Source: Edaphochlamys debaryana (Eukaryota; Chlorophyta; Chlorophyceae; Chlamydomonadales). Taken from it: DNA of 64,000 nucleotides. Below, piece after piece: positions 1-33,700 of the stretch. The stretch covers positions 682,001 to 746,000 of the forward strand of contig JAEHOE010000049.1 of assembly GCA_016858145.1 (NCBI GenBank), in the 5' to 3' direction. Within the stretch, counting starts at the first letter, position 1, and the number at the start of each line of letters is the position of its first letter. A model generated the notes under the pieces. It was not told the DNA's origin. It searched no databases and saw nothing but the letters and a program-made list of their open reading frames with translations. A program made the position numbers and the translations under genes.

Positions 1-173
1 CATACGGTGGGGCCGGAGCCTGGGGGGGGGGGCCTTGTGAGCCCAGCGTACGGTGGGGCCGGAGCCTGGGGGGGGGGCCTTGTGAGCCTGGTGTACGGTG
101 GGGCCGGAGCCTGGGGGGGGGGGTCCCTGGGAAGGGTCCTTGGGGCCAGGCATACGGTGGGGCCGGAGCCTGG
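1..173 (+). repeat. G-rich tandem array with four copies of a TACGGTGGGGCC core
   Basis: Copies of a roughly 21-base core beginning TACGGTGGGGCCGGAGCC start near 3, 49, 93 and 153, separated by G runs and CCTTGTGAG-like spacers. Degenerate copies continue to about 350. The core contains a possible splice donor (ACG then GTGGGG), and the array lies upstream of the first GT60 exon that I can read. It is therefore probably intronic and may derive from the donor of an exon lying left of the window. That last point is inference. Confidence 0.7.
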
Positions 174-530
174 GGCGTTGGACCTCAAGGCAGTGCCCGC
201 ACGGGTACAGCCCAGAGTCCTGAGGGGCCCGAGGGTAAGGGGCCCACTCTCTGAGGAAGGGCCCTTTGAGCCCGGCATATGATGGGACCAGCTGGGGGAG
301 GCCCCTGGGATGGTGCAAGGGTTTTGTTAGCCTGGTTTATACGTGGGCCAGCTGAGGGGGTCGAGGGCTGAGGGCGGGGCCACCTGAGGGGTTTGGAGGA
401 GAAGGCAGTTGATGCAGGGGCCAGCAAGGGAGCTGGTGGAGACGATAGGGCAGTGCAAAGTTTGGAGGGACCTCTTCACCCTCCCTCTGGCCCAAGCCCC
501 CTCCATCCTCCTCACACATACCCCTCTCAG

Positions 531-3500
531 GCGCCTGGCTCTGTCCCACCTAGACGCCAAGGGACCGTTCGTGGCGCGCAGCCACTCGGCATCGCTGTAC
601 GGCGGGGAAAGATACGTACTGCAGGTACGGCTCAGCTGCTGCACCCACGTGTCTGTCCCTGCTGCGTCCCCACAGCGACTCGTCTTCGGACCCCTCCTCT
701 ACCTTCCATCCCACCCCCCAAACCCACCTCCTCTACCACCCACGAAAAGCCACGCCCCTCCCTCTCCTCCCCCCCAGATCGATTCCCACGTCGTGTTCGC
801 CCCCGGCTGGGACACGGAGCTGCTGCGCATGCTGCGGAGCCTGCGCTCGCCCAAGCCGCTGCTGACGGTGGGGCGCGATGGGGGGTTTCGGGCCCAGGGG
901 GGCGGCGGGGGGAGGGTTCAGTGCCCAGGCCGCTGCTCATGGTGGGGCGTTAGGGGTGTGTCCGTGTGGAGTGACGGGGTCCGGAAAGGTTAACTGTGTG
1001 CCCAGGCTGCTGCTGGCGGTGGGGCGCTGTGCGGAGGGACGGGCCCAGGGGGGTGGCGGGGGCGGGCGGGCGGTGTGGCCGGAGGGTTTGGAGCTGTTGG
1101 GGTGTTTGGCGGGTCAGGGCCACATGAGTGCCCCATCTCCTGATCACGGTGGGGCGCAGCGGGGAGGGGCGGGGGCGGGGTGGAGTGGCGGGGGCATGCA
1201 GCTGGCGAGGGGGTCGGGAGCTGCCGGCCAAACCCCTGCTGACGGTGGGGCGAGATGCTGGGGCGTGGGGGTGGTTGGCGGGAAGGGCGCCCAAGCCGCA
1301 GCTGGTTATGTGTCTTTTGCACTGAGGTGGGAGGCAGGTGGGAGGTGGGAGCGGGCAGGAGACCCCCGTCTTGCCATGCCTCCTGACGGCCCCATCGCCC
1401 CTTGGTCCTTTCCAACGAGGCATGCAGAGCGCGAGCTACGTCAGGCGATGCAGTTCTGACTCTGTGCTTAATTAACCCCAAAGCCGTCTGTCTCCCGTTG
1501 TTACCCCCCTCCCAGACATACCCCGCCGCCGTCACGGGCTTGGACGAGACACGGGTGCCCGTGCTCTGCGTGGCGTTCTGGCGGCAGCCCTCGGGGCTGC
1601 TACGGCTGGGTACGGTGCTGGAGCCGCAGCCGTACAGGAACCAGTACAAGGTAGGGCGTGCCGTACGCGCCATACGGTACGGCAGGCCGGAGAGTAACGG
1701 GGAAAGGGGAGGTCCTTGGGAGATGGGCTATGGGGTCAGCTTCACTCACTCTTCTCCCCCTAGTCATCCGCTGCTCCCCCCCCCCTGTCCCTCAGCCCGT
1801 GCCCTTCGCGACCGGCGGTCTCATGTTCGCACGTGCTGACGTGTTGGCCGAGGTGCCGTACGACCCCACCCTGGAGTACCTCTTCCACGGGGACGATGCG
1901 CTGTACAGGTGGGCCCGGGCTGGGCCGCGGTCGGGGCCTGGGCTGGGCCCGGAGGGGCCCGGCGGGCGGCACTGGCGGGCACACAGGTGCGGGTGCGGGG
2001 TGCCCCCCGCACACGTCGCACAAACAGCCCTGAGAACGCACCGCAGCCCCCCTGTGACTGCTTCCCCCTTCACCCTTTAGGAATGACGCGTTACAGGGTT
2101 GCGGCCAGCGGGCAGACGAGCTGCCGGCCCCGCATAAGGGGGAGAGAGTCAACTTCCCCCGACCCCAGGCGTTCCCTAAGGGATCGTCCACTTCCGAGTC
2201 GCCACCTACTCCAACCAAGCCAAAGAATTGAGACACCCGGCCCACGCGGGACGCGGGGAAAGAATCAGCAGGCCGAAGCCAAGTCCAGGGCCGAAGCCCT
2301 GCCATGTCCACACCCGCACCACCGAAGCCAAGCTCCAAAGTGCAATCACCGCCAGACCGACCACCTACTCGCAGCACAGGACCGGGGGGGGCGCACAGCC
2401 AGGCGCAAACCCCCACGAGAAGCGGGCAGCCGAAGCTCCCGAAAGAGACCACGGGGGAAGACCCCCGAGAAAGGCGGGCCGGGGCGAGCACAGCGCCCAC
2501 AGCCAAAAGTCGGGCCCAAAGGCCAAGTCGAGCAGACCGCTCTCCTCGCGTCATTCCTAGGCAGCCCCGGGAAGCGGGGAGGCTCCAGCGAGCGCCGAAC
2601 ATTCGCGGCCGACCATCGCACCACGCCAGAAGCACCACCGGACACGCGGCCTGCGCAGGAGTCCACGAGAAGATCCTCCAGAGCAAGTCCGCCAGACGGC
2701 CGACGCGAGGTCCTCGGCTCCCCCCACGCGATTCCAGAAGGCGGCGCGCCGCTCCAAGCCAGCGCAGGCGGCGCTGCCCAGCGCGAGCTGTGCGCCCTTT
2801 CACAGTCGACGCGGGCCCGCATGGCCATAACGACTCCGGAGCGCGCCCGGGGCACGGCGCCGACCGATGTCCAGAAGATTCTCCAGCAGGCGCTCCACTC
2901 GCTCCCGCCGCCCAGACCGCGCGGCGAAGGTGCCTCAGTCGTGCGAAATAGCCAGCCACGAAGCCGGCGAGCGAAGAAGAATGGCCCCGCACAAGGGCCG
3001 ACAAAAATTGGGCAACACAGCTCGCGCTGGGGCACAGAGGCCCCAGCAGCGGAGCCTAGGGCTAAGCTATTAGCCCAGCCCGATCCCGCAGCGGGCCTGC
3101 AAGTCAACGCGCCAGGCCTGCCCGCTGACCCCCCACCCCCACCCCCACCCCCACCCCCACCCCACCCCACCCCCGCTCCCCCAGCGCCCGGCTGTGGACC
3201 AGCGGTTGGGACTTCTACACTCCGGACCGGTGGGCACGGAGGGAGGGGTGGGGAAAGGAGGGGTTGGGAGGCCTTGCGAGGGAGCAGAAGGATGCGCATA
3301 TTGGCTCGTGGTGCGCAGTCAGGGGGTGTTTTCTTCGAGCGGAAGCAGGGGAAGCAGGATCTTTCAGACGGACGAAGGGATGGGGCGAGGGAGGGAGGGT
3401 GGCGAGCCCCCCATCGTCCTCCCGTCCCCGCGTCACGGGCCTCCGCGAACGCCTCAATCCGCCCGTCACCTGGCATTCTGGCCCACCCCCCGTCGCCCCT

Positions 3501-6064
3501 CGCCCTGCCTCCACCGCCCCTGCCCCTCAGGAACGTGGTGTTCCATTCCGGCGGCTCCGACCCCTCCCCCCGTGCACCTCCCCCTCCACCGCCCACCCCC
3601 CCTTACCCCCACCCCCCCTACCCCTCAGGAACGTGGTGTTCCATTCCGGCGGCTCCGAACGGGGCCTGGACCTGCCCGCCTTCCTGGCTGATGCGGGGCG
3701 GGGGGCGGGGGTGGCGGAGAGGAAGCGGGAGAGCGAGGAGAAGGTGTGTGAGGGAGGGGAGGTTGAGGTGATGGGGGAGGAGGGGACAGGGGAGGGGCCA
3801 GGAGAGGACCCCCGGACAGAGCTCCTTCTTGCTCTCCCATCGCCTCCAATGCAAGCGCGCGTGTGTATGGTAGATCGGGCCGAGGCTGGATCTGGTGGGT
3901 GTGGGTTCAGGGTTCGTCTTAATCTTTCTACCTGGCGTTGATGTCTCCTGCTGTAGCTTGCAACGATGCTGGTGCCAGCATCGATGCGCGCTATGACAGG
4001 CGACGTCAACGCCATGTTGAAAGGCGAAAGCAAAGCCTGGAGGAAGGGATGAGGCTCCCGAGCCAAGCCGGTCCGCTGCGCCGTGGTACCCGGGGCCGCT
4101 GGGCGGGGCACCTGTGGATCTATGGATCTATGGATCTATGGATGCACAGCTCAGCCCCTGTCCCCCTCGCTTCGCCCCCTGGTGCACCCCCCCTTGTCGA
4201 ACGATCACACCTCTCCCCCCCTCTGGTGGACTCCTCCCTCCCCCTGCCCCCAGGCGCTAGCCATCCTGACAGGTCGGTACGACCCCTCGTATCCCTTCGG
4301 CATGGGATCCGTACGGCCGCTGTCCGACTGGTGGGAGTACGCCGGACTGGATCCAGCGGATCACACGGTCAACGCCGACGGATCCAGGTTCTGCATGTGA
4401 GCATTAAGCTGGCCTGCTTACTGCGTAGGCAGAGGCGGATGGGTCACGTGTGAGTGGTAGTCATCATGGCCCATGGCTTCCATACTGCCGTACCGCACCG
4501 CATAACCGTAACAACGGGCCCATGGCTGCCGTACTGCCGTACCGCACCGCATCCGGGCAGCGCCTAGCGGCGGCTTGGCCGATAAGCCTCTACGGTCTAC
4601 CACGGGGGCCTGGCACTGACACGCACAAGCCCCCATACACACCTCCGCACCCCCCTCCGCCCCCCGCCCCTGCCCCCACAACCTCAGGACTCGGCGGCGC
4701 GCAGGGCCCCAGTCCCGGCACGGGGGCCTGGCACTGACACGCACAAGCCCCCATACACACCTCCGCACCCCCCTCCGCCCCCCGCCCCTGCCCCCACAAC
4801 CACAGGACTCGGCGGCGCGCAGGGCCCCAGTCCCGGCACGGGGGCCTGGCTCGGCGCTTCTCCCTCCGCAACGGAGTGCTGCAGCACGCCTCCCCGCCGC
4901 CGCCACGCAAGCGACACCACAAGGTGCGCTGCCCGCTAGCCCCGACACGCCCACGCCCATACACACCTCCACAACCCCCGGAACACTTCCGTCCTCGGTG
5001 TCCCCCACCCGCCGCCCCACGGTCCGCGGCCACAAGGCCATATGGCTCTGGCCCTCACACGCACACGCACACGCTTACACTCATACACACCTCTACAGCC
5101 CCCCTCCGCCCCCCGTGTCCCCCACCCGCCGCCCCAAGGTCCGCACCCACAAGGCCATGGCTCTCGCCCTGACACGCACACGCACATGCACACGCCCATA
5201 CACACCCCTCACAAACCCCTCCGCCCCCCGTGTCCACCACCCCTCCACCAGGTCCGCGCCCACAAGGCCATCGCGCTGGCAGTCGTCTACCTCAGCCCCC
5301 CGCCCGCCGCGGCCAAGGCATCACACGCCGAGGCGGCCGACGGCGTGGATTCAAGGGCGGAATCAACCGAGGTGGCGCATGTGAAGGCACTCCCTGCCCA
5401 CGCCGGGGCGACGGACGCAGTGGCCTCGGCGGACGGCCTGACTGCGTCGCACGTAGTGACATCACATGCGAAGGCGGTCGACGCGTCGCTTGCATCGCAT
5501 GCATCGCATTCAAAGGCCGCGGGCGCGACGGAGTCTGCGGCGCACGCGGCGCATGCAACGAGCGCGGTCAAGGAGGCGGAGGGCGGGAAGGAGCAGCGTG
5601 TGGCAGCGGCCACGGAGGCAAAACACACGGGGGCGAAGGAGAAGGTGAAGGAGAAGGAGCACGAGGCGGAGAAACCCCATGCCAGTACCAGCGGTGGCGG
5701 CGGGGGGGGCGGGGGCACGGCGCGGGGCCACCACGCGAGTGTGGAGGGGGCCCGGGCGGTGAGCGACATGCAGAAGGCCGCGGCGGGGGCGGCGGCGGGG
5801 GCGGAGGGGGGGGCGGCGGCGGAGGGGGCGGCGGGGCGGGAGCACCATGCCTCGCCCTCGCCCAGACCGGAGGACCGGCATCACTCACTCACGCCGAAAG
5901 CGGAGGAGCACCATTCTTCCTCGCCGTCTTCCTCTGCAACGACGACAGCGGCGGATGCGGCGAAGCTCGCCTCGCCTCGCCACAAGGCGGAGCCGTCGCC
6001 CTCCCCAGGCGCGGGGGTCAGGCACCGGGTGAAGATCGAGCCCGAAAAGACGGAGCGCCGGTAG
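531..6064 (+). CDS. GT60 family (Skp1-type) GlcNAc-transferase, 5' partial, nine exons in the window
   Basis: Exons: 531-624, 778-867, 1516-1650, 1796-1908, 3185-3229, 3629-3743, 4254-4396, 4806-4923, 5252-6064; all phases close. Conserved GT60 blocks appear in family order: LDAKGPFVAR and YVLQ joined to IDSHVVF (exons 1-2, the presumed metal/nucleotide site), KPLLTTYP (2-3), FATGGLMFARADVLAEVPYDP and LFHGDDALYSARLWTSGWDFYTPD (4-5), NVVFHS (6), FGMGSVRPLSDWWEYAGLD (7). Known members transfer GlcNAc to hydroxyproline of Skp1 in the cytosol. The N-terminal part lies left of the window. Exon 7 ends either at a TGA (4398-4400) or at the consensus donor GTGAGC at 4397. If spliced, exons 8-9 add a roughly 310-residue Ala/Lys/His/Gly-rich disordered tail ending at 6064. 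The catalytic part is firm; the tail could belong to a separate product. Confidence 0.85.
851..1310 (+). repeat. Array of copies of the GT60 exon-2 donor edge
   Basis: The real exon end is CCCAAGCCGCTGCTGACG followed by GTGGGGCG (donor at 868). Diverged copies of exon edge plus donor recur in the following intron at 924-949, 1001-1026, 1131-1156 and 1228-1252, with a sixth copy near 1290 that has lost the donor. Spacing is irregular (62-130 bases), so this is not a simple minisatellite. Confidence 0.8.
1909..3184 (+). other. Long GT60 intron with an A-over-T skewed insert
   Basis: This 1.28 kb intron separates codons of the contiguous LFHGDDALY / SARLWTSGWDF block, so the many long open frames through it are not exons. 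From about 2090 to 3110 the plus strand is poor in T and comparatively rich in A and C. A perfect 13-base inverted pair, TAGGAATGACGCG at 2078-2090 and its complement at 2547-2559, may mark the ends of a small inserted element. I see no clear target-site duplication. Confidence 0.6.
3531..3661 (+). repeat. Acceptor-side exon-edge duplication (period 98)
   Basis: The last bases of the intron (CCCCTCAG) and about the first 33 bases of GT60 exon 6 occur twice, at 3531-3563 and 3629-3661. The second copy runs into the remaining exon and is the one I use; the first is a decoy acceptor followed by C-rich sequence. Confidence 0.85.
4601..5285 (+). repeat. Two exon-derived tandem arrays in the GT60 3' region
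   Basis: A 118-base unit starts at 4601, 4719 and 4837; it carries the acceptor and first half of exon 8 (GACTCGGCGGCGCGC). A second series of about 98-117 bases repeats the exon-9 acceptor edge (GGTCCGCGCCCACAAGGCCAT) at about 5021, 5138 and 5251, with a CACAAGGTGCGC relative at 4918. CA/AC microsatellites occur near 5060-5090 and 5175-5200. Confidence 0.8.
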
Positions 6065-7715: not shown

Positions 7716-10700
7716 ATGTCGGTCGACATGCGCGCGCCGTCGCGGCGCGGCTATGGCCACGTCCTCGCCCTGTTGGCCGCAGCGGTATGTCCGACCGGCA
7801 TTAACAGTCTTCCATCATTTATGCGTGGTTCGTTGCTAGCCCCCGTGTTGACCTTCGCGGCGGGCGCTCCCCACCCCCCACCCCCTCTTCCCCACCCAAA
7901 CCCCCGCTTCACTCTCCCACCCCCCGCAGCTCCTCCTGGCCTCTAACAGGCCCGCGGCCTTCATCGCGACAGCTGCAGCCTCGACTGCCTCAACCACAGA
8001 GTATGACTACGCGGCCCTCCTCGACGCCTCTTTCTTCTTCTACGAGGCGCAGCAGAGCGGCCCCCTGCCCCCCTGGAACCGGGCGGGCCGCTGGCAGCCA
8101 GGCGAGTAGTGCCGTACCAATGGCTTACCAATAAGTGCCGTACCAATGCAGCGAGTGGGGGTAGAGGAATACCCATTCGCAGTAGAGAAGACGCGGGGTC
8201 CTTACGTCCTCTTCCGTCGGGATTTGTCGTCCCTCGTGTTGACAAATGCTATGCCCTTCGCATGCGCACCCCACACCCTCCATCCCAGGCGGCTGGCGCG
8301 ATGCCGCATACATGGACGATGGCAAGGACATTGGTGCCAACCTGACCGGGGGCTGGTTCGACGCGGGGGGTGAGCTGGGGCGCGAGGGGTTGGGGTCAAA
8401 AGGGGCTGGAAGATGGGAAGGAACGCGGACAATCTACCCGTTCAACCCCCCTCGACCGCGCCCACGCCGGCCTTGCACCCCACCCACCACACTCGCTGCC
8501 CCCTTTCTTGCCTTCCCGCCCCTACTCCCAACCCAAATCCAAAATAAAGATCACATGAAGTTCCAGCTGCCGTACGGCTGGGCCGCATCCACCCTGGCCT
8601 GGGCCCTGGCGGACTTCCCGGCGGCCTTCGCCGACCCCCCCGCGCTCAGGGGTGTGGCGCTGCGCAACCTCGAGTACGCGGCCGACTACATCGTGCGAAG
8701 GTGGGCACTTGTGGGAACGAATACATCGCCTGGTTAGGGGATTACCCTAGTGCCCTGACCCCGCACCTGCCCTCCTAGGCAAGGGCTTGGCCCGTGGTGG
8801 GTGGCGGGTGGCGGGTGGTGGGTGAAGGCCGTCACGTGGTTGACCTGTACCCCACTCCCCAAACCCCCTTGCAGCCACATCAATGCCTCCGACGTCCCCT
8901 CCGAGAATACGTACGTCGCCCAGGTGGGTCCGCTTGGGGGCGGAGAGGAGGAGATGGCGACGAATGCGTCGATGTTCAGGTGTCATGCAGAGTCCCTTCC
9001 CACCTGTGTACCTCAGCCCTCCGCACCGCACGCATTGCACCCTACGGCATCCTTTGTTAGCAGCAAGCCTCCATCCATCTTCCTTCCAGATTGCTCGCCC
9101 CTCTCCTCCTTACCCCCCCCCCCCTCCTTACCCCCCTTCTCTCCCCCCCCTGTCAGGTCGGTGACACGGACACGGACCACGCCCGCTGGTGCCGCCCCGA
9201 GCAGTGCCCCGCCGTGGAGGGCCCCTACCGCCCCACCTGGCTCGCGACGCCCGCCCGCCCCGGCTCCGACGTCGTGGGGGAGGCCGTGGCGTCGCTGGCG
9301 GCGGTGGCCATGGTCCTGCGGGTGAGTAAAGAGATGTCATCATGTGCGGAGGATCTTTTGGGATCTTCCGGGATCTTTCGGGATCTTTCGGGATCTTGCG
9401 GGATTTTGCGGGTGGATCTTGCCATCCGTGGAGGCCGTGGCGTCGCTGGCGGCGGTGGCCATGGTCCTGCGGGTGGGTGGCGGGAGGTGGTGATGTGGGG
9501 AGAAGGGGGGAAAGGGGGAGGGCGGTTCGGGCCTGGTTACATGCAGTGACGCACTGGTCGTGCCGGGGCCTGCCCCTGCCCCTGCCTGGTCTGCGTGCCG
9601 TGCTCCTGTCACCCGCCGCCCCCGCCCCTGGCCTTCCCCGGCCTCCCTCCTACCCCCCCGCCCCCCCCCAGGCCTCCGACCCCGCCTCCCCCCGCGCCGA
9701 GGAGCTCCTGCGGCACGCACGGCAGCTGTACGGCTTTGCATGGTCCTACCCCGGCACGTGGGAGATCCCCTCGGGGGACTACCCCTACCGGTGAGGGGGG
9801 AGGGAGGGAGGGGCAGGGCCTGAGACGGTTGCGTTCGGAGGCCGCTTCCATCAACCCAGTCCTTCCCTTGCACCCCTTCGTACCTCATCCGAACCCTTCC
9901 CCATTGTACGGCTATGCGACCGTACGGCAGGTACGGCAATCACGAGTGGGTGGACGACATGCTGTGGGCCGCGGCCTGGATGTGCCGCGCGCACCCCCCC
10001 GGCACCCCCTCGGGAGCCCCCTCCGCCCCCTCGACCTACTGCGGCGATGCGGCGGCGCTGTGGTCCCGCGGCAGCGGCATGGGCATCGGCTGGTGCCCGG
10101 GAATGGACTGGTGAGGGACTGAGGGGGTGGGGGTCTGGGGGATGAGTTATGGAGACATTTTGCGGGTCCCAAAGAAGAAGTGGGGCGTCGGCTTGATGCA
10201 TGCCTTTCCATTCATCTGTTCCATTCCTGACTGTGTGTGCCGCCTCTGCCCACTTCTCCTCGTGTGCCCGCCTCCCTTCTCCCCTCCCCCTCCACACACG
10301 GCTCCCTGCTCCGCCCCCCCCCAATCCGCCCGCGCCCTCCCCCCCCCCCCCAGGGACAATGCCTTCAATGAGGCCAGCGTCATGATGCTGGGCATGGGTG
10401 ACAGGTGGGGGGGAGGGGGGGAGGAGGAGGGGTAAAGCGTGTGTGTATTGGGCACGTGTGTCCCATGTCTGGTTGGGGCGAGCAGGCTTGGGGGGTGTCA
10501 AGCTGGGGTGCAACCCTCCCTGCCCCCTCCTGTGCTGACCAAACACCCCCCTCCCGCTCCCCCCAGGCTGGGCGCCTCCTTGCTGTCGGGTGTGCGCACA
10601 CGCATGGCCCAGAACCTCAACCTCTGGCACGTGAGGCCCCGGGGGGCTGGTCTTGGGGGGGCCCCCGGGGGCCGGGGCACATAGACGGTGCGAGGAGCGT

Positions 10701-13005
10701 GGGACGGGGGACCAGGGGGAACTGCGAATGCGAGGAGGACGTGGGGCCTAACCCTCCCTCCCTCCCCCTCCCCCGTCCCCCCCCTGACAGGTCGGCATAC
10801 AGTGTACCGCCCCCCCTCCCGGCTACGACGCCAACGGCGACGGCATCGTGGACGACGGCCGCATCTGCTACTCCCCCCGCGGCCTGGCGCACCAGATGCA
10901 GTGGGGCACGCTGAGGGTGACGGCCAACGCGGCGGCGCTCAAGCTCTCGTTTGCGCAGGCAGGCCTGGGCACCGGCCGGGCGGGGGGAGGGGGGGGGCTG
11001 CTGGACCCCACGTCCCCACGTCATAGGCCACAAACCAACCGTCACGTAACGCACCTCTTCCTGGCATACGGTACCTCTATTACCAGCGTACCGCGACCCC
11101 ACCACCTGTGCACTCCGCTCCGCTCGTTGACCCGCGCCTCCCCCGTTCCCCGCCGTGGCTTCCAGGATCAGCGCTGGCCCAGCCCCTGCAGGGAAGGCCT
11201 GGCCCCGGCAGGCGCCTCCTCCAGCTCAGCCACTCATCCCCAACCCTCATGCCTCCCCCTTGCCACGCTCCTGCCCCCCTCCCCCCCCCCCAGGCCCTGG
11301 CGGCCACCGGTGTCCCCACGGATGCGGTCGAGGCCCAGCGGCAGCGCTGCTGGGCGCGGCGGCAGGTGAGAAGGGGGGGCGGGCAGGATAGCCATCGCCT
11401 CTTTCCTCACACCCTTAGTCGCCGTTCACTTAGCCCCCCCCTCCCCCTCCTTCCCTTCTCCCCTCCCTCCACCTCTACCCTTCCCCAGATCCGGCTGATG
11501 CTGGGCGACTGGGGCCGCAGCTTCGTGGTGGGCATGGGCTCACCCCCCCCCACGCGCCCCCACCACTCGAGCGCCATGTGCGACCCCGACCCCGCCACCC
11601 CCTGCGACGGCGCCACGGCGGCCCTGGACCGCCCCAACCCCTCGGTGCTGCGGGGGGCGCTGGTGGGGGGCCCCCGCAAGGACGACAGCTACGAGGATAA
11701 CAGGATGGACTACAGTGAGTGTGGGGGCAGGGGGGGGCAGGCAAGAGGGGTGGAGGAGGGAAGGAGGGGAGGAGGAGGGAGGGAGTGGGGCCAAGGGAGG
11801 AAGGGAGGGAAGGGAGAGGGGGGAGGGACAACAGGATGGACAACAGTGAGTGGTGTGTGTTTGGGGCGAGAAAGGTGTCTGGATCGACCTGTCCCCCTTC
11901 CTCAATACTCTGGCCTCCCTCCCTCCATCTCACCTCCCTCCCCCCTTCCTTAACCTCCCCCTCTTGCCTCCCCCCCCAGTCCTGAACGAGGTGGCCATTG
12001 ACTATAACGCCGGATTCACAGTGGCACTGGCGGCGCTGCAGCAGCTGGGAAGGGCCGACGTGACGGACTGGGACGCCTACTGCGGCCCCTTCCCCTCCCC
12101 CTCGCCCTCGCCCTCTCCGTCTCCCTCGCCTTCGCCTTCGGCCACTCCCTCGCCTTCACCCTCGCCCTCTCCGTCTCCTTCGCCGACCCCTACGCCCTCA
12201 CCCTCGCCGTCTCCGTCCCCCACTCCGCCCCCCTCTCCTTCCCCCTCGCCCTCCCCTTCCGCCACCCCCACCCCCTCCCCCTCCGCCTCGCCGTCCCCCT
12301 CGGGCTCCGGCCTCTGCCCCGCCGCGCGCTGGGAGTGCGGCGCCTGCGACGCCCCCACGCCCCCCGGCTCGCCCCTGGCCCCCGCCCGCCCCGCCTGCTA
12401 CGCCTGCGTCAACGCCCGCGGATCGGCCCCGTCCTGGCAGTGCCACGCCTGCCTGCAGAAGCCCGCGTACACGGCCGATCAGGTGGGCTGGGGATTGAAG
12501 GCGAGGGGAGAGGGGAGGGCGTGTGTGTTTCGGTCGTGGCGGTGCCCATGCCTGCCTGCAAAGTGGGGATGAGCTGCCCCCATCCCCGCTTTCTCGCCTG
12601 CTGGAACTTATCCCGGCCGCCCTTGCCGTGACCCCTTGGCCCCCGCCGGCCCCTCCCCCGCAGGCCGCCACGTGCCTGTCCTGTGTGGCCGCTGGCGGCG
12701 ACGCCTGGGCCTGCCAGCAGACCTGCACGGATCTCACCACGGATCCGGATCTGCTGCCGATCTGCTCGGCCTGCGCCAGCGATCCGGCTGTCATGGCGGC
12801 GGGCGCCTGGCGCTGCGGAAGCTGCATGGAAGCTGCGGTGCGTGCCAACGGCGCCGATGCGGTGTCGGGCTGCTCCGCGTGCGTGCGTGCTGGGCGTGAG
12901 TCGTGGGCGTGCTCCGCGTGCGGCGCCAAGGCGGATGCCGCCGCACGCAACGCATGCCTGGCGTGCGTGCTGTCCTCCAGCGCGCAGTGGAGCTGCGTCG
13001 TGTGA
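7716..13005 (+). CDS. Secreted GH9 endoglucanase with Pro-Ser linker and Cys-rich tail
   Basis: Fifteen exons (7716-7784, 7930-8101, 8289-8369, 8550-8700, 8875-8923, 9157-9321, 9672-9790, 9931-10110, 10354-10404, 10567-10630, 10791-10958, 11294-11365, 11489-11714, 11980-12482, 12664-13005) give about 803 residues with every phase closed. The order is: signal-peptide-like segment (HVLALLAAALLLAS), GH9 catalytic domain, a linker of SP repeats of about 75 residues, then a module of about 215 residues with many CxxC pairs. GH9 marks are YDYAALLDASFFFYEAQQSG, GGWFDAGDHMKF (catalytic Asp region), YGNHEWVDDMLWAA, RPHHSS, and DNRMDYILNEVAIDYNAGF with the acid Glu. The family hydrolyses beta-1,4-glucan by inversion. 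Secretion suggests cell-wall or extracellular glucan turnover. Introns after exons 2 and 11 use GC donors. A later ATG at 7728 could also serve as the start. Confidence 0.95.
9279..9475 (+). repeat. Donor-side exon-edge duplication (46 bases, period 151) with an 11-mer array between
   Basis: The 3' end of GH9 exon 6 plus the start of its donor (ending GTCCTGCGG then GTG) occurs identically at 9279-9324 and 9430-9475. Between the copies, 9352-9420 is a short tandem array of an 11-base unit resembling GGGATCTTTCG. Confidence 0.9.
11695..11854 (+). repeat. Donor-side exon-edge duplication (period 131)
   Basis: The end of GH9 exon 13 and its donor (AACAGGATGGACTACA then GTGAGT) at 11695-11723 recurs at 11826-11854 with two substitutions (GGACAACA then GTGAGT). 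The second copy retains a consensus donor inside the intron. Confidence 0.85.
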
Positions 13006-16237: not shown

Positions 16238-18461
16238 TCAGAGGTAAACCTGCACGGCGCGAGCGCCGGGCGCGGCCGACGCGGGCAGCTCGACGGTCAG
16301 CATGCACCCCTCGGCGTCGTACGCCCAGGCCGCGGGCCGCCCGTCCAGCGCCACCCCCCGCACGGGCGCCTTGCGCAGCCGCGAAGCCGCTGCCTCCAGG
16401 AACACGAGCAGCGTCGAGGCGCTGGCGGCCGTCACCTCCACCTCCAGAGCCACGCCCAGGGCGGAGGCTACGGAGGGGGCGGCGTCGGAATCGGCAGAGG
16501 CGGCGGTGGCGGCGGCAGCGGCCGCCGCCGCCAGCGCACTCGCGGGCATCACGCGGCAGAAGCCTACGGTGGGCAGGCCGCGGCCCTTGACGCCCACGAT
16601 GCCGAAGCTGGCGAGCACGCGCGCAGGGGCCGTGGTGGCGGTGGCGAGCGGCGCTGCGGCACCCTCCGACGCCGAGGCCGCATTGGACAGTGCCGCGTCC
16701 TGGCCTGCCACGATCTGGATGATTGGGGCGGCGACGATGGACCGGCCGGCCAGGGAGAGCGTGGGCGCGGCCGCCGCAACGGCGGCGGCCTCAGCGGGCG
16801 CCTCGCCGGACGCCGTTCCGGACCCGGATCCCGCCGTGCTGTTGGTGCGGGAGAGGCGGCCGGCGCCGGTGGGCGTGGCAGAGCCGGAGGAGGCGGTGGA
16901 CACGCCGGCCGAGACGCCGGCGGGGGACTCGTTGCCGGCGGCGGCGGAAATGCTGAGGGCGCGGGCCAGGGAGCCCAGCGGCGCGCCGCCAGAGCTGATG
17001 CGCATGCCGCTGCTGGGCGCCATGCGCAGCGCCGAGGGCGTGTCCATCACGGCCAGCACGTGGTTGGTGGCGGTGCCGTACACCACGGCCCTGCGGAGGA
17101 GAATGGAGGCAGGGCGGTGTGGCGGCGAGGTGAGTGGTTGAGGGTGGTCACAGGGTCAAAGGGTCGTCGTGCAGGACTCGCCGCCCGACCCACATGGCCG
17201 CACCCCTAGAGCAGCCAACCCACATGCCTTGGACATTGCCCCGGCCCAACCCACAAGCCCGCAAAGCACCAGTCCTCCCGTTTCTCACGGAAGACCCAGA
17301 CCTCATCCTGGCCCCGTTGCCCCCCTTCCTTGCCCCGCCCCGACCCACATGCACATATACCCCTCGCAACCAAACCCGCCCCCGCCCCGCCCCGACCCAC
17401 ATGCCCGAGTAGCACACTCTCAGCGGCTGCGCCATGCCCAGGCAGGAGCGCAGCATCGGGGCCTGCGTGAGCGGCTTGGCGGGCGTGTCGTGGCCCTCCT
17501 GGACGAGCACCGAGGAGTAGAGGTGCGCCTCCAGCGCCTGCACGGCGGCGGCCGTCGCGGGGTTGCTCCCGGCCTTGTCGGCCGCCGCGGAGGACGGGCT
17601 CTTGGCGCCCAGGGTCGAGGGCGAGCGCTCCTCGTTGAAGGCGCTGCGGTTGATGTAGTCAAGCAACGGCAGCGCGTAGGAGCGCATGTCGGAGGCGGAC
17701 ACGCCTGAGGATGGAATGGGCGAAGTGGGTCGAAGAGAAACGGGAAATACGGTGGGTGAGAGACGGGGTGGAGGAATTGCAGGGGGTTATGAGAGGGATG
17801 AGGAAGCGACGGGTTGTAGCAGGGGAGGCAAGGGAAGCCGCGGGCCGGGTGCGCTGCGGGCGTGTCGACGACGACCGCCCTTCCCCACGTGCGTGCGCTG
17901 AAACCCGGGCCGCACCTGTGGCGGCGGCCAGCGACGTTACCGCGTCCATCAGCGCTGAGTACTTGCTGGGCCCCCGCGCGAAGGCGACGACGTTGGAGGC
18001 GTCGCTCGTCGACGACGGCTTGACGCGAATCGCGGAGTCCACTCCACGCGGCAGCACCAGGATCGGTCCAGAGGCTGGGGAGACCCACGCCACGAACTCG
18101 CTGTCAGCGGTGAGGCCGGCGAGGGCGTGCACCTCCTCAGGCAGAGCCGAAAGCGAAGAGGTCCAGGCAGTGGGAGTAAGGTGTTGGCGCGACGCGTCGT
18201 AGAGGCCCGCGACCGCGCTCGTGATGTTCAGCTGCGAAGAAGCACGGAGCACGTCAGATGGGTCGGCGAGCGGCGTCGAAGAGCCGAGGTAGGCTAGGGC
18301 ATCGACGCATCGCGAATCCTCCGCCTTGACCGCGCTCCCAAGCTGGTAATGAGGTGGAGCGGCGCTAAGGTGCAGGCACGTACCTCAGATAGCAGAACGG
18401 TGCCCTCTGCGTTGACTGCGCTGTGGTCCGGGCGCACCAGCGAGGCCGCCACCGAGCTCAT
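16238..18461 (-). CDS. Unrecognised 511-residue protein, four exons
   Basis: Exons in transcript order: 18461-18384, 18231-17916, 17704-17416, 17090-16238, with all phases closed (1536 bases including the stop). The start ATG at 18461 opens MSSVAASLVRPDHSAVNAEG. Residues 27-130 form a compact, conserved-looking block (VHALAGLTADSEFVAWVS, ILVLPRG, FARGPSKYSALMDAV); this is the part copied at 13985-14436. Residues 130-230 contain MRSYALPLLDYINRSAF. The C-terminal half (exon 4) is Ala/Ser-rich with a hydrophobic, possibly beta-rich end (LEVEVTAASASTLLVFLEAA). I recognise no family and see no catalytic motif, signal peptide or clear transmembrane helix. The donor of exon 3 (GTGCTA) was chosen over GTGTGC because only it restores the frame into VAVVYGTATNHVLAVMD. 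Confidence 0.65.
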
Positions 18462-19050: not shown

Positions 19051-22000
19051 TCACGCGTGCGTCGTTGCCGCAACAGCCGCGCCTGCCCGTCCTGTCCCCC
19101 CGCTTCGCGCCACGCGCTCCACCGCCTCCACGCCCGGCACCCCCGCCGCGAGGCCCTCCCGCGAGGCCTCGCGAGCCGCCTTGCCGCCGCCCGTGGCCGG
19201 CGCCGCGGAGCTGCCCCCTCCCAGCACCCGCAGCGCCGTGGTGTATCCCAGGAACGAGGCCCCGTCCATGACGAACGCGCGGACCAGCGTTGGCGCCACA
19301 CCGCGGAAGAAGGCGCGGGCGCCCGCTTCGGCCCACATCTGGGGGTGGGGTGTGCGGCCAAGGAGGTGAGAAGGGGATCGACAGAGGCCCGGTGGGCCGG
19401 ACCTCGGATGATCAGGACAGGACATCGATAAGAGTCAGGCCAAGCCTGTCGTACGCCATGTGCATGAGCCCTTCCACATCCCAGGCCCCACCTCCTGTAC
19501 GAAGCTCGTCCAGCCTCGCCCCGCGCTGGCCGTAACGCCCACGGCCTGCACCCGGCTCTTGATCACGTCCAGGGGGTAGATCGGGATCCACGCGATCACG
19601 CCCGCCAACCCGCCAGCCACCACCTTGGGCGCGGGGGGAGTGGCATTGGGCAGATGCACAAGTGCCGTTGGAAAGAGACAGGGGGGGCCGGGCCAAAGGG
19701 CATCTGACCGGGGCTTGGCCTCCGAGGCTCCAACCACGGAAGCCCACGCGACCGCTCTGCGCCTTAGCGGCTTCCAAGCACGCGTCGCCAGCCGGGCCCC
19801 GCGGTACTGGTGCCTCCACAGGGGGGGGGGGGTACCGGCCCGCGGTTCACCGCAGCAAGGTGCTCACCTGCGTGGCGGGCGGTGCGGCCTCGGGGTGCAC
19901 CCCGGGGGAAAGCGCCGCCGCGATGTCGTGGTAGAGCCTGGAGGGGTGGGCAGGGGGTGGGGTGGTGGGTGGGGGGCAGGGGGCGGCTCGGGTGGCGCGT
20001 GGGGGCAGGGTGCATCCGCAGAGGGTGTGGCATGTACTTCCAGCTGCCTCGCCTCGCCCCCCGCCAGCCAGCCCTACAGCCAGGGAGCGGGGAGGCGGGC
20101 CGCCCCCACACTGCCCTCTGCTTCTACCACAAGCCGCTGGTTGACGTGCGCAACGCCCGATCCACCCTGAGACACACGTTGCGCAGTGACTACCCACCAG
20201 GAGTGGATGGCGTAAGAGGGCCCGTGCCTCAGGCCCTGCCCCACCCAGACTATCACATAGCGCATTCCTGGGTATCCCAACACACACCCATACACTCCCA
20301 GGGGCAGTCACGTTTGCAGAGCCCCAGCGCCAACCGCCACTCACCAAAAGTACATGGCGTAGGAGGGCACGTCGCGGACCACCGTGAGATTGAAGCCCCG
20401 GTACAGGCCTGCGAGGCAGAGCGCGTGCCCACCAGTAGGGGTCAGGGGTCAGGGGTCAGGGGTGCGGTGGCCGGAGCCTGAGCGACTCTCTTTCTCCCCT
20501 TCCGTAGCTCCCCCAAGCAGCGCTGGGCCGATGGACTGCACGGCTAGCCGGGCTTTCCCTGCTCTTGACCCCTCCCTCAACCTCACGCACCCCGCCTAAC
20601 GGGCGTCCGTTCAACAGCCCCATCCCCTCAACCCGCACTACCCGACCGCCAGCTCTCCTGGGAGCTCACGCGCACGTCGCCTACATCGCACAGCACACCT
20701 TCCAGTCAAGACGCCCGTCCCCACCTCCCCGCTCCCCCCTCCCCACCTCTCACGCCGTCCGCCCGCAGCACCTGCACCGCCAGCTGCGCGGGGTTGAGGT
20801 AGGCGGGGGAGCCGCGGGGGGCGGTCTGCAGCTGCGCGCGCAGCTTGAGCAGCTCCACGGGGGACCACAGGAACACCTGAGGGGGTGGGGCAGGGGGGCG
20901 GATGGGGGGTTTAGGGGAAGGCGTGAAAGCCTGCTCGGTGTGTATGAGGGGCAGGGGATTGCTGCGAGCCTCCGTAACCCAGACCCTGACGCCCATGCTT
21001 GGCGCCCGCGCCTAGGCCCCCTCCCGCCGGGCCCCCTGCACGCCTCCAACCTCCCCTTCAGTCGCACCTGGGCCATCCCCGCCACTGACCCCGCCAGGAA
21101 CCCCTGCCAGGGCGTCGGCAGCGCGGCCGGCCCTCCTCCTCCTCCTCTGTCGCCGCCATGCCCTTGCCCCTGCCCTTGCCCGACCCCTTCCCCTCCGCCG
21201 CCTGCGCCTCTCCCCTTCTGCCCCGCGCTCCCGACAGGCTGCCCCGCCGCCGCCAGCGCTGCGGCGGCCGTCCCGCTGCTGTTGCCCCCGCTGCTCCCTT
21301 GCCCTCTCCCGCCGCTCGTGCTGCACCCCTCCGCCTCCGTTCCGCCGCTGCTAGCCGAGCAGGCGATCGCTCCTTCCCCTCCACCAGCTCCGTCTCCGCC
21401 TCCTTCCCCCGCGGCGCGTGTGCTGGTCACTATGGGGCGGAGGGTCCGGGCCCCAGGGGGCCCAGGCAGGCCCAACCGCTCCGCCACCCACGCCGCCACC
21501 GCCCCCGACACGGAGGCGGGCCCGTGGACCCCTGCTGGGTCCTGCTGGGCCCCGGCGGGCAGGGCGTGATGGTGGTGGTGGAGGTGGAGCGAGTGCAGGG
21601 AGTGGGACGAGTCGATTGAGGCGGGGGACGAGGCAGAGGCAAAGGCGGAGGCAGAGGCCGGTAGCGATGAGGACAGTGCTGGGCGAGAGGTCAAGGAGGA
21701 TGGGAGGGAGGAGGAGGAGGGGGAGGCGGAGGACGAGGAGGCGCCGGCGAGGAGCGCCGGGGCATCCTGCGTTTCCGGTTGGGCGGCTAGCTGCCGAAGG
21801 GTCCAGCCGTACGCCTGGGGAAGGATCGAGCAAACACCCGCGGCAGGGGAACGCATGGTTATGTCTCAGGCAATCCAGCCAGACGCATTGCTCCAACGGT
21901 ATGGCCAGCACAGGTAGGCGCTGAAGATTACGCTAGGGAGGGGTTTCCCTCCCTCCCAGGCCCAGACCCCAGGCGCCGGTAAGGCGGACCAGGCTGAGGG

Positions 22001-27700: not shown

Positions 27701-30700
27701 CAGCCGCATGGGCGGGGGCCCAGCCGGGCCCAGTACGGCCGCAACGACGCCCGGCGGGGACGGCCGGCCGTCGCCCACGTCAGCCCTTGAGCTGCGGGCG
27801 GGGGAGTCCTTCACTGGGCCTGGCCTGGGCCTGAGCATTGGCGGAGGAGACAATTCGTACAGCGGTGGGCCCCTGTCGCCGGATGGGGGCGGCGGGTCGC
27901 CCAAGCTGTTTGGTATGTACATGCCCAAGGTGGGAGGGAGGGCGGGAGGGTACGGAGGGGGCAAGGTCTAGCAGGGGTTAGCAGGCTCGAGGGGGGCGAG
28001 TGGGAAGGATGAAGGGCTTACGGGTCAAGGGGGGAGGGTAAGGGGGAGGGTAGATGCCCAAGGTGGGAGGGAGGGGGGGAGGGAGGGGAGGGGGGGGGTA
28101 CGGCGGGGGGAGGATGGGGGGGCATTTGGAGCATCTGAGAGAAAAGGAAGAGATATAGCGGCAGCCAGCGAGCCCGATGCGCACCGAAGTCCAGACGGCA
28201 GGACCGGGGGCAAGGGGCGCATGGGTCAGCAGGCTGGATTGAGGCAGGCTGGAGGGGGACGGGTACACGGGGCAAGGAGTGAGCGTAAGGGGCAGGGTAA
28301 GAGTGGACAGCAGGCGCACAGGCTGACGTGGACGCTGACCACCGCATGCGTGCCGCGGCCTTTCATCTCCGCAGGAGGACCCGCTGGGCCTGTGGATGGG
28401 CAAGCGCATGACTAAGACCGAGATGGTAGTCGAAAAGCGCCTGTACGCCATGCGCCACAACCCGGGTGAGTCACGCGAGCCCCGATACGACCCCCTGCCC
28501 CTGTACGACGCTCGTCTTCGTCGCCTTCCGAAACACACCGGCACCTGCCTCAACCGCTCTTTCCCCGCACTCACCTGCTTAGGCCCCGCTCCTGTAGCTT
28601 CCCAACAACCTCTGTCATATCTCTCTCGGTCCTACGTCTGTGCACCTTCCTTTGACCTGAGCAGGCATGCGCCTGGAGCTGGAGGGCCGTGCATGCGACA
28701 CGCACCCGCAAACACACACGACTTCACCCCCTCTCATGCCCCCCTCCCCCCCTCCCCCCCACCCCACCCCAGGCATGCGCCTGGAGCTGGAGGGCCGTGC
28801 GGGGGACGCCCTCCGCGCCCGCGCCGCCCAGCAGGCCGAGGTGGCGGCCATCAGTCAGCAGCGGGAGGCGGAGGCGGCGGCGCGGAAGGCGCAGCTGGTA
28901 GGGGTTTGGGGGTGGGGTGGTGGGGGTGCTGACGGGTGTGTGGCTGCAAAGCTGGGGCAGCGGCTGGAGGGCCTCCGGCCGTGTAGCGGGGTTCAAACGG
29001 GTTTCAAAGGGATTGAAGGGCCGATGGTCAGGCGTCCACGTGCGGGCGGAGAGGGGTCCGAGAGGGGTTTGCTCGGCGGGTGGGCTCGCGGGGTGGACTC
29101 GGAGGGTGGACTCGCAGATACACACACGTTTTACCCCTCATTTCCCCCCCTCCCCCCCCTCCCCGCCTCCCCCCAGCGTGCCGACCTCGAGGCCCGCCGC
29201 CGCGGCCTGGCGCCGCGACACAACGCCCGCTCGCCCAAGCGCGGGCCCCAGGTGCGCCCCGGTCTGTGCCGGAATGGCCTGGTGTGGCCTGGTGTGTGCC
29301 CCAGCTCCGGCCCTAGCGGGAGCATGCATGTTGGGTCAACGCCCGAAGCATCTGCCTGTCCGACTGCCTGCAACACATGTCTGTTTCGCGCAGCACGCCA
29401 GCTCTTGCTCTTGGGTCAATGCCTGAACCAACTGCCTGTCTGACTGCCTGTAACACCTCATACAAAGCCTGGCTTGTGACCCCATGATAGAACCTGTCTG
29501 TCTGTAACACCTGTCATGTCACACCTGCCATATCTGTCCGCCTGCCCAGGGCCTGACGCGCGACGCCAAGCGGGCGCTGGAGCGGCGGCTGATGGAGGAG
29601 CGGTTCGACGAGGTGCGGGGGCCGCTGAGCCGGGACGAGGCGGCGGCGCGGATACAGGCGGCGTGGCGGGTGAGAGGAGGGGGGGGCTGGGGAGGGGGGG
29701 CTGGGGAGGGGGGGCTGGGGAGGGGGAGGGGAGGTGTGGTGCGGGGTAGGGATGAGGCGGCGGGTTGCAGGCGGCGTGGCGTGGGGGAGGAAGGCGAGCG
29801 GGAGAGGGTGGGGCTGGGAGGGAGAGGGGGAGGGGCTTAGAGGTCTGGGGTTGGGGCGGACGGTGAAGGGGCGTTAAGTAGGGCCGTTGCGGGCAGCGGA
29901 GGGCAACGGCGTTCTTGGCTTGGGTATGCTCCCCCTTCCCCGCCCTGCAACCCTAACTCATCTCACCGGCCCCCCCTTCCCCCGCCCTCTTACTAACGCA
30001 GATGTACCGCCAGCGGCGCTCCTACCTCCGTACGCGCGGCCTCATCATCCGCCTGCAGCGCGCCTGCCGCCTGCGGTACTGCGTTGTACGGACGACGCGG
30101 CGGCACCGGACGGCGGCGCACCTGCTGCTGGACTTCCTGCAGGCAAGAGGGGGGGACAGAGGGGAAAGTGGGGCTAGAAGGACGACTTTCCCTGACCTGC
30201 CCGCCACCTGCCCGCGATATCCGCCAGCTTAAACATCCATTCCTCCCCCCCCCCTCAGGCGATCATAGGCACACGGCAGGCGTCCGCCGCCATGGACCTC
30301 CGGGAGCTGCACTCCAACTGTGAGGCCGGGGGGGGGGGGGTAGGCAAGGGGCAGACATAGGAGGCAAGGGAAGGGGGGAGGATTGGGGAGGAGGGGAGGG
30401 GCAGGCGGGTCAGCCATGGACCTCCGGGAGCTGCACTCCAACTGTGAGGCCGGGGGGGGGGGTAGGCAAGGGGCAGACATAGGAGGCAAGGGAAGGGGGG
30501 AGGATTGGGGAGGAGGGGAGGGGCAGGCGGGTCAGCCATGGACCTCCGGGAGCTGCACTCCAACTGTGAGGCCCTGGGAGGAGGATTGGCAGGGGGGACG
30601 CAGAGGCACGGGCAGGAAAGGGGGAGTGGGAGGAGGTTGAGCATGCGGGGATACAGGGAGGGGGGTAGAGGGCCCTTCTTGGCTTCCTCTCTCCCAGGCA

Positions 30701-33700
30701 ACTGGCGCCTCCGCTTGCCCCGCCCTCCTCCCTGGCCCCACTCCCCCTCACCCGACCACACCCTAACCCCTGCACCTGCCCTACTCCTTTCCCCCCTGTC
30801 CCCGTCCACAGACCTACGCCGCCGGCTCCTCGAAAAGAAGGGGGACCTCCGCTACCAAACCGCCGTCGCGATCCTGGTCCGCGAGTGGGATATGGTCGAA
30901 TCCAGGATCCTGGCGCTGGGAACCCGGGCGCACCGCATGAACCTCAAGGGCGCAGGAAACGCCGCCATCGCGGCGGTTGGTTTCGCGGCGGTCGCAATCG
31001 GCGGCGGCGATGGATCTGGATCCGGCGGCGGGGCCAAGGGCGGCAAGGGCGGCAAGGGGGGCGACAAGGGGGGAGGAGGGGGCGGGGGGGAGCCGGATCA
31101 TCTGTCGGATGTGGCGGGGGACGCGGGGTCGGCGGCGCACGGCACGCGGCTGCTGGGGCGGGCGCTGGAGGCGCGGCGGAAGGGCGTCATGCTGGTGGCG
31201 GAAGGTGAGGGGACGGGGGGGGGGTTTGGGGGGAAAGCTCCCAGGGTTCGTGTCAGACAGGAGGGGTTGGGGCTGGGTGGGAGACGGAGCGGGCGAGAGT
31301 CAGAGGGCGGGGAGGCCCCAGGGTCTCATGCAAGTCGCGGGGTTGAGAGGATTCGCGGGGAGGGAGCCACCCAACCCATACCATCTAGCTCCGCCCAACC
31401 CCCAACCGCCCAACCGCCAACCGTCCAACCGCCAACCGCCCAGGCACGGGCGACCTGAACAAGCAGCTGACGGTGGAGCACGCCCTCGCTCACGCCGTGG
31501 CAACGGACAAGGTGGTGCAGGTGAGGGGGAGGGGGGACGAAGGGGGCCATGGAGGGGTAAAGCGTGTGTGTTTCGGGACACTTCGGGGCGGTGACGGCAT
31601 CCGCGTGGGGGCGGGTTTCGTGCCGGACGAGCCTGCTGAGCGAGGTGGTGCAGGTTGGGGGGAGGGGGGTGGAAGGGGCCGGTGGGGAGGGATTGGGTTG
31701 ATCTTCAACGAGCTGTAGACCGGAGAGCCCGAAAGGTATGGCGGTAGGGGGGAAGGGTGGTGGGACCTTGAGACTCGCCCGTCTGCCCCGCGCCCCTGAT
31801 CCCTGCCGGCACCTTCCCTCCCTGACCCGCCCTCTTTCCCTATCCCTTCGCCCTCCATTTCGAACAACCACCGCCCAACCCCCCGAAACCCCGAAACCCC
31901 CGAAACCCCAAACCCCCGAAACCCCAAACCCCCGTCCCCCCTCGCCGTCCCCCCCACCCCCCCACCCCCCAAACCCCCCAATCCCCCCATCCCCCAGGAG
32001 AACCGCGAGCCGGTCGCCGCCGAGGTCAAAGCCGCGGTGTGCGCCTGCTACATGGAGCACAAGAGCCACGCGTACAACGCCCTGGTGGGGGTGATCTGGC
32101 TGGTGAGGCGGGGGGGGGCGGGGGGTAACGCGTGTGTGTATGGGTCTGGGGACGTGCCGGGGAGGCGGGGGGAGGGGGTGCGGAGGAGGAGTGTGTGGGC
32201 TGGGTGGATGCGTGTTCACACAGCCTCTCCCTCCCACCTGCTCCTCCATCACCTCTTCCACCGCTGGCTGGTCCGCAGCCCACGCCCAAACACACACGCC
32301 ACCCCCGGCTTCCCCCTTTCCCCCCAATCCGTCGGAAACCAACCCCCTTCGCCGCGCCCACGTTTTCCCGGCTTTCACGAGCAGCCCTCCACACACGCCC
32401 ATACACACACGTTTCCCCCCTTTCCCCCCCTCCCCCCCAGCGCCGCGCCCGCTGGTTCGGGCTGTTCAAGCAGCAGCGGCAGATGGCCATGGCCCGCTCC
32501 GTGGTCGCCACGGGGAGCGCCTGGCAGGAGATGGACGAGCTGACACTGGTGGGCCTGGGCCTGGGCCTGGGGCGGACATGGGATGGGCCTGAGATGGGCC
32601 AGGGGTGGGCCTGGGATGGGCTCCGCGCAATTACGTGAGGTAGCTGCGCCAGAGCTCGGCCTCTCTTCGCATCGAGCGCAGCTTCCTTCCTGACGGTTGT
32701 CGTAGCGTCTATGGTTGTCGTAGCGTCCATGGTTGCCGTAGCGCCGTACAGCGCTTCGGTGGCCCGCCGCCCAAACACACATCCCCCCGTTTCCCCCCGC
32801 TCCCCCGCAGCAAGCCACGGTGGCCCTGGCCGGCCCGCTGCCCCAGCTGCCCCGCATGCGCATCACAGCCACCCTGAGGGAGCTGAGGTGCCTCATGCAG
32901 GTGGGGGCGCGGGGTGTATGGGGGGGGCACGTGGGGGGGGGGCGGGGTGCCTCATGCAGGTGGGGGCGCGGGGTGTATGGGGGGGGCACGTGGGGGGGGG
33001 GCGGGGTGCCTCATGCAGGTGGGGGCGCGTGTATGGGGGGGGCACGTGGGGGGGGGGGCGGGGTGCCTCATGCAGGTGGGGGCGTGTGTATGGGGGGGGC
33101 ACGTGGGGGGGGGGCGGGGTGCCTCATGCAGGTGGGGGCGCGGGGTGTATGGGGGAGGCACGTGGGGGGGGGGCGGGGTGCCTCATGCAGGTGGGGGCGT
33201 GTGTATGGGGGGGGCACGTGGGGGGGGGGGCGGGGTGCCTCATGCAGGTGGGGGCGTGTGTATGGGGGGGGCACGTGGGGGGGGGCGGGGTGCCTCATGC
33301 AGGTGGGGGCGTGTGTATGGGGGGGGCACGTGGGGGGGGGGGGCACGCAGGGAGGCACGGGGTGCCTGTGTGTGTTGGGGCAGGGGGGTGGGATGCAGGT
33401 GGGGGCATGGGATGGTGCACCCTGAGGGAGGCAGGGAGCTGACAGCTGAGGTGCCTCATGCAGGTGGGGCGTGGGTGTGGGTGTGTGGGAGGGGGGGGGC
33501 ACGTGGGGGGCGGGTCGGGGGCAGGGGGAAAAGGTAGGGGGAGGGGGGGGGCAGGGGGGGCAGGTGCACCCTGGGGGAGCTGAGGTGCCTCATGCAGGTG
33601 GGGGCGTGGGGGGTGAGGGACGCGGGAGGAGCAGGGCAGTGAGGTCCATGCCCTGCAAGCCGCTCAGGTCCTCAGTGGGCGCTGGCCCGCTGGCCCGTCC

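Follow-up and report, generated by a model that had tools for sequence, protein, structure and literature searches.

Genes and exon-edge copies of the window

The window, by which we mean the whole stretch of DNA analysed (64,000 nucleotides), comprises positions 682001-746000 of contig C49, in a genome of 141.9 Mb and 502 contigs. Its plus strand carries a gene matching the GlcNAc transferase family PF11397 of Pfam (3e-14), which we take to be of the GT60 type, a GH9 gene (PF00759, 8.9e-79), and a gene named IQ in the original prediction for this DNA, one exon of which was searched against Pfam and matched no family. One minus-strand gene encodes a mitochondrial carrier (PF00153, 1.1e-56), another minus-strand gene has three introns, and further genes lie at 38-57 kb. 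A predicted minus-strand gene at 61602-63001, whose copy in the window matches no Pfam family, is followed by further copies at intervals of about 3.28 kb (99.4-99.9% identical; 64883, 68165, 71446 and 74728 in window numbering), a long tandem array that reaches nearly to the end of the contig.

Gene models for the 228 kb surveyed (a 178-kb part of C49 containing the window, and five 10-kb stretches on five other contigs, L021-L025) are ab initio predictions of a self-trained simple gene finder, and yielded 315 introns, or 297 after removal of 18 predicted exons shorter than 15 nt. A minus-strand model from -606 to 1673 was recognized as an artefact after the plus-strand GT60 exons were recovered; the 297-intron counts still include it, together with the one event it contributes. 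Introns of the window genes have separate, hand-checked coordinates (e.g. GH9 exons 8289-8370 and 8551-8700, predicted as 8289-8388 and 8650-8700), and copies in them are called at a score of at least 15 with at least 9 exon nucleotides.

The exon-edge repeats first reported in introns of the GT60, GH9 and IQ genes are real, with copies of a gene's own exon edge present in 13 of 43 hand-checked introns (5 of 9 in GT60, 2 of 14 in GH9 and 6 of 20 in IQ) and 1 to 9 copies in each. A weak GH9 candidate at 12483-12663, whose copy ends 25 nt short of the junction, is left out of the GH9 count. The remaining genes had been described as free of such copies, which holds for the 16 hand-checked introns at 38-57 kb and the three of one minus-strand gene, but not for the mitochondrial-carrier gene, in which one of seven introns has a weak copy. 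The features are as follows.

-143..6, plus strand: GT60 exon before the intron at 7..530.
7..530, plus strand: GT60 intron with donor-side copies at 39-62, 138-166 and 261-289; an array with a ~45 bp period at its start (TRF and hand list).
868..1515, plus strand: GT60 intron whose donor-side copies (923-949, 1000-1027 and 1225-1252) are decayed.
3523..3560, plus strand: GT60 acceptor-side copy of the exon start 3629-3658, with 30/30 exon nt and its own CTCAG.
3561-3628: GT60 block separating copy 3523-3560 from the live exon.
4678..4732, plus strand: GT60 acceptor-side copy of the exon start 4806-4850 (45/45), tandem-like.
4733-4805: GT60 block after copy 4678-4732, with antisense matches to blocks of other genes.
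5021..5251, plus strand: two GT60 acceptor-side copies (5021-5041, 5129-5167) separated by blocks, with a unit of 115-117 bp.
9322..9429, plus strand: GH9 block between exon edge and copy, with no further genome match at E<=0.001.
9430..9478, plus strand: GH9 copy identical to the exon edge 9279-9321 (43/43); the donor hexamer after it is a different one, GTGGGT.
10425..10453, plus strand: GH9 core F1, sense, near the donor of intron 10405-10566, in which no exon-edge copy was detected.
11826..11852, plus strand: GH9 donor-side copy of the exon edge ending at 11714, followed by GTGAGT.
20192..20225, minus strand: mitochondrial-carrier gene, weak donor-side copy.
28050..28072, plus strand: IQ donor-side copy, 13 exon nt and donor.
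28662..28692, plus strand: IQ acceptor-side copy that repeats the exon start 28773-28800 (28/28) and carries an AGCAG of its own.
28693..28772, minus strand: IQ element block between copy and live exon; its antisense core at 28691-28734 is a profile seed.
29749..29791, plus strand: IQ donor-side copy of the exon edge ending at 29669.
30320..30573, plus strand: IQ tandem array with a 122-bp unit; 31-nt exon-edge copies at 30413-30453 and 30535-30573 (TRF and hand list).
31552-31582, plus strand: IQ core F1, sense, before the copy at 31643-31663.
31643..31663, plus strand: IQ weak donor-side copy, 11 exon nt and donor.
32121..32147, plus strand: IQ core F1, sense, near the donor of intron 32085-32440.
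32392..32421, minus strand: IQ core F1, antisense, near the acceptor of intron 32085-32440.
32901..33606, plus strand: IQ intron containing nine copies on the donor side, in 59-bp units as far as 33311 and with longer copies at 33444-33469 and 33567-33606 (TRF and hand list).

The window contains other repeats as well. A 59-bp stretch of an IQ intron (32639-32697) recurs in intergenic DNA at 37635-37693 with 95% identity and is a possible dispersed repeat. The segment 13982-14438, downstream of the minus-strand gene, is a partial gene copy that repeats 457 bp of that gene's exon and intron sequence (17761-18216) with 96% identity, and a predicted intron includes a nearly pure (CCGCCC)n run of 19 units at 48126-48241.

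Frequency and placement of the copies

Among the 315 predicted introns, 40-nt exon edges match their own intron at a score of at least 14 in 29 cases on the donor side and 17 on the acceptor side, where introns of other genes give an expectation of 0.28 and 0.37 respectively. Control windows from exon interiors match their own intron in 2 of 170 and 0 of 175 cases, and 124 local repeats are present in the real C49 sequence versus none in a block-shuffled one. Low sequence complexity as the cause of the copies is ruled out by the other-gene null, the shuffle and a check of detection power (below).

Copies are present in 51 of 297 introns (53 events) across the 228 kb, in 16 of 37 predicted multi-exon genes and on five of the six contigs; they occur in L021, L022, L023 and L025, with none in the seven introns of L024. 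The effect had been taken to be regional, an idea that we reject given the copies on four of the five other-contig stretches and a gene-to-gene heterogeneity that is not significant (permutation p 0.10). Between 38 kb of the window and the end of the contig, however many genes are crossed, all 26 introns lack a copy (p 0.006), 10 of them being in copies of the one tandemly repeated gene. Introns with copies are longer than the others (median 350 versus 239.5 bp, p 2.8e-6), although length itself provides more room for copies.

The copies cluster at splice junctions. Among local repeats spaced 60-260 bp apart, a junction is crossed by 33 and 6 are interior to an intron, the remainder being five exon-intron pairs that do not reach the junction and two intergenic pairs. 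Planted 30-nt repeats are detected equally well inside introns (0.91) and at junctions (0.92), and the junction excess of 33 out of 39 has p 5e-17 against uniform insertion into introns and p 7e-6 against random 112-bp duplications.

The inner copies were also said to keep their GT or AG signals, and this is borne out: a splice dinucleotide is retained in 19 of 24 (17 of 22 without two misfiled arrays), with ~5.5% expected by chance. The inner and live sites have different hexamers in 10 of these 19 cases, as expected if the inner site was formerly a live junction.

The intervening blocks and their core

Joint duplication of an exon edge and the adjoining intron start predicts that the two copies are followed by matching sequence. 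Such agreement is seen in 12 of 53 events, or 14 when two misfiled arrays are added. In the 41 others, as classified by the script rule, similarity after the copies is not clearly above that of unrelated introns; two of the 41, IQ intron 18 and the 20-549 array, are in fact arrays that the rule failed to recognize, leaving at least 39 of 53 that are non-tandem. The sequences after the copies are unrelated even where the exon edges are identical over 43 (GH9), 39, 30, 28 and 24 nt, with a weak agreement in GH9 that persists over 30 nt after both copies. The spacer from live junction to copy has a median of 79 bp (IQR 65-94), the junction-to-copy distance a median of 117 bp (46 events), and copy identity ranges from 0.76 to 1.00. 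The copy falls at least 7 nt short of the junction in 13 of 53 events, which may reflect later deletion.

These data bear directly on plain tandem duplication, i.e. minisatellite slippage that copies the exon edge together with the intron start, the copies decaying afterwards. It would account for the events with matching sequence after both copies, and arrays with units of ~100-122 bp are present both in the window and elsewhere. At most loci, though, simple tandem duplication is rejected by the unrelated sequence that follows identical exon parts, since both intron parts would be of the same age, and the scarcity of interior repeats at equal detection power also speaks against it; as a general account we consider it very improbable. 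Of the tandem junction duplication first proposed, the lengthening of introns at splice junctions is supported by the difference in median length and by the retained splice dinucleotides; a tandem primary event is not supported for most loci, 12 to 14 of 53 events qualifying.

A shared core around GGGGGAAAGCGTGTGTGTATGGG is present in 13 of 42 spacers, and a profile built from these 13 seeds was run on the 228 kb at E<=0.5. All 27 resulting matches, seeds included, are intronic. Sense matches lie 27-58 bp from a donor in 14 of 15 cases and antisense matches 35-61 bp from an acceptor in 9 of 12, about half of this agreement being by construction as the seeds were taken from such places. Intron ends with a core have a copy in 12 of 23 cases compared with 41 of 571 without (p 4.8e-8), an excess that is not independent given that the seeds come from copy-bearing ends. 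In the whole genome a 21-nt core has 366 matches with up to 2 mismatches and a degenerate version 498, arrays included, and reversed-core controls have none.

Two observations are independent of the seeds. One block matches the intron acceptor end of another gene on the opposite strand over 70/70 nt at 83% (E 4e-14), and dust-filtered matches between intron ends of different genes have the same polarity in 71 of 76 pairs. Between-gene matches with this filter occur at 23 of 281 five-prime and 18 of 281 three-prime ends, the corresponding figures being 5 of 99 for mid-intron segments, 11 of 303 for intergenic ones and 9 of 117 for those from exons. The core is conserved on one side only in 32 aligned sequences, and the block ends are variable; it is also short and of low complexity, with a single 35-nt match within 3 mismatches, such that the ends of the element are poorly defined. 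Many blocks have no clear family, and the GH9 block beside the 43/43 copy matches nothing else, which weighs against the element insertion proposed below.

The blind test used 12 loci, taken in list order from the 23 listed perfect matches to the core, with the C16 array left out and no use of gene models. A flanking direct repeat is present at 9 of the 12 loci, with 95-123 bp spacing and scores from 15 to 58, and absent from three; the null from 132 cross-locus comparisons has a mean of 8.8 and a maximum of 15.5, so that one of the nine positive loci (score 15.0) falls inside its range. In L026, L030, L032 and L034 the repeat can be followed by eye into the G-rich intron start, and the duplicated stretch therefore spans the splice junction, with the live and inner splice sites both within it. 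L034 has a second, diverged core deeper in the intron, as expected for an older layer.

Contiguous head-to-tail units are found in some 12 to 14 of the 53 events and not in the others. Arrays are also present at two loci elsewhere: L039 has 22 core units of ~104 bp, its 42-nt exon edge occurring 22 times within 5 mismatches (the exon included, 21 intronic) with a GT after each, and L038 has 17 core units of ~117 bp on the acceptor side, with a 35-nt edge occurring 18 times (17 intronic) and a splice dinucleotide with each. The sequence changes after the last copy of either array, which fits one insertion and subsequent unequal exchange between its flanking repeats.

The blocks could alternatively derive from DNA template switching, in which a polymerase that stalls at an intron's G-rich start or C-rich end would jump to another intron end, copy 40-80 bp and rejoin the exon 20-50 nt upstream; intron ends would seed each other, with no mobile element involved. 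Consistent with this, G5 runs reach 16.5 per kb over the first 50 nucleotides of introns and C5 runs 27.3 per kb over the last 50, block ends vary, many blocks lie outside any large family, and partial-length matches of ~70-95% link blocks with other intron ends. Against it, the recurrence of a single core hundreds of times with none for the reversed control, together with the narrow repeat spacing at the nine positive blind loci, suggests a specific unit, and we regard template switching as rather unlikely.

The same composition offers a simple reason for element polarity, the intron start being G-rich and the end C-rich. G-tract targeting fails as a full explanation, since G5 runs are more numerous overall in mid-introns than in the first 50 nt and the sparing of mid-intron tracts is left unexplained. 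Across the 228 kb the G-start/C-end strand asymmetry of predicted introns is far above that of exons and intergenic DNA. In a separate observation, the C49 intron at -44102..-43753 (window numbering) has donor-side and acceptor-side copies around a middle that starts with GCGAGG and ends with a C-rich AAAG, this middle being possibly an older intron inside newer layers.

A selected function might also be envisaged, either through pairing of intron-end motifs (GUGUGU with ACACAC) or with the copies acting as regulated alternative splice sites. Cores are present at both ends of the same intron in 2 introns versus 0.42 expected, and the retained splice dinucleotides would suit such a role. The co-occurrence is nevertheless based on just these two introns, the inner sites would keep the reading frame in only 10 of 40 cases if used, and the spread in copy identity is what ageing neutral sequence would be expected to give; this explanation we hold to be extremely improbable.

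Proposed origin and relation to known systems

The repeats, the unrelated block between them, the families to which part of the blocks belong, their polarity with respect to intron ends, their placement and their confirmation at blind loci are all direct observations, from which we infer that the block is mobile. The exon-edge copies are probably the flanking direct repeats of a short dispersed element that inserts at existing splice junctions. Such an element would land just inside an intron, duplicating 20-70 bp across the junction. At a donor the predicted order is a proximal part, with 20-50 nt of exon edge, the splice site and the first few to ~30 nt of intron; then the element, with the rest of the G-tract, the core GGGGAAAGCGTGTGTGTWTGGG and a short variable tail; and finally a distal part, with the same exon edge and old splice site followed by the old intron. 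Acceptors would have the same arrangement on the opposite strand, the element supplying the C-rich tract before the AG.

With the exon-proximal splice site presumably used, the protein would be unchanged; the intron would gain ~115 bp per event, the old junction would be stranded inside as a fossil, and unequal recombination between the flanking repeats could then give rise to arrays. Insertion may proceed by nick-primed copying at G-tracts, a G-rich 3' end priming on a C-tailed RNA. That these elements constitute a mobile class which homes to splice junctions on both strands, duplicating a 20-70 bp border at each landing and building rings of ~115 bp with fossil junctions, is a bolder claim that we advance only tentatively. 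If it is correct, each ring pushes the live splice site outward and leaves a datable fossil junction, and the process may account for this alga's long G-start/C-end introns, perhaps also for those of its relatives.

Intron lengthening is less understood than intron birth. Insertion of this kind would offer a way for introns to grow without protein change, and each step would leave a marker, namely the exon-edge copy and former splice site, with which intron growth could be dated and counted. L039 in turn provides a natural test of how the spliceosome chooses one junction among 22 near-identical ones. No description of the pattern was found in the openly accessible article texts searched.

At 20-70 bp and of varying length, the flanking repeats exceed those usual for the common transposon classes, a point against the proposed insertion. 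Short retroposons (SINE/LINE) have target duplications of variable length and a simple tail on one side; unlike them, the elements described here have a core of ~20-35 nt and a G-rich tail. Other inserts flanked by direct target repeats are likewise similar in kind, the differences being that the repeats here are long, some of the inserts belong to recurrent families, and existing introns are lengthened.

In the AGGT model of tandem genomic duplication, reviewed in PMC3443670 and treated also in PMC4974935, direct repeats also contain the splice sites, and the intron constitutes one repeat period. The original prediction offered stages of such intron birth as one of two readings of the repeats, and this one we reject: the intron 3' end resembles the upstream exon end in 0 of 289 introns and the intron start resembles the downstream exon start in 0 of 292, and most of the repeats are split by unrelated sequence.

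The closest parallel is with introners, which the passages available from PMC9860276 (Gozashti et al. 2022) and from PMC3443670, where the Micromonas introner elements are described, present as short dispersed intronic families with target duplication, a strong genic bias and splice sites derived from element or target. A family dispersed in introns of many genes is found here too (27 of 27 core matches intronic, 13 seeds among them, and 366-498 matches in the genome). Choice of the splice junction itself as target, which the proposed insertion would add, is not described in those passages of PMC9860276 and PMC3443670. According to the same sources introners create new introns, whereas the inserts described here lie at existing junctions, the new-intron signature being absent from the 289 and 292 introns noted above. 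Introners have target duplications of 3-9 bp (PMC9860276), terminal inverted repeats or both, and the flanking repeats here are ~20-70 bp and span the splice junction; also unlike introners as those passages portray them, the inserts occur in both orientations, with the same end facing the exon.
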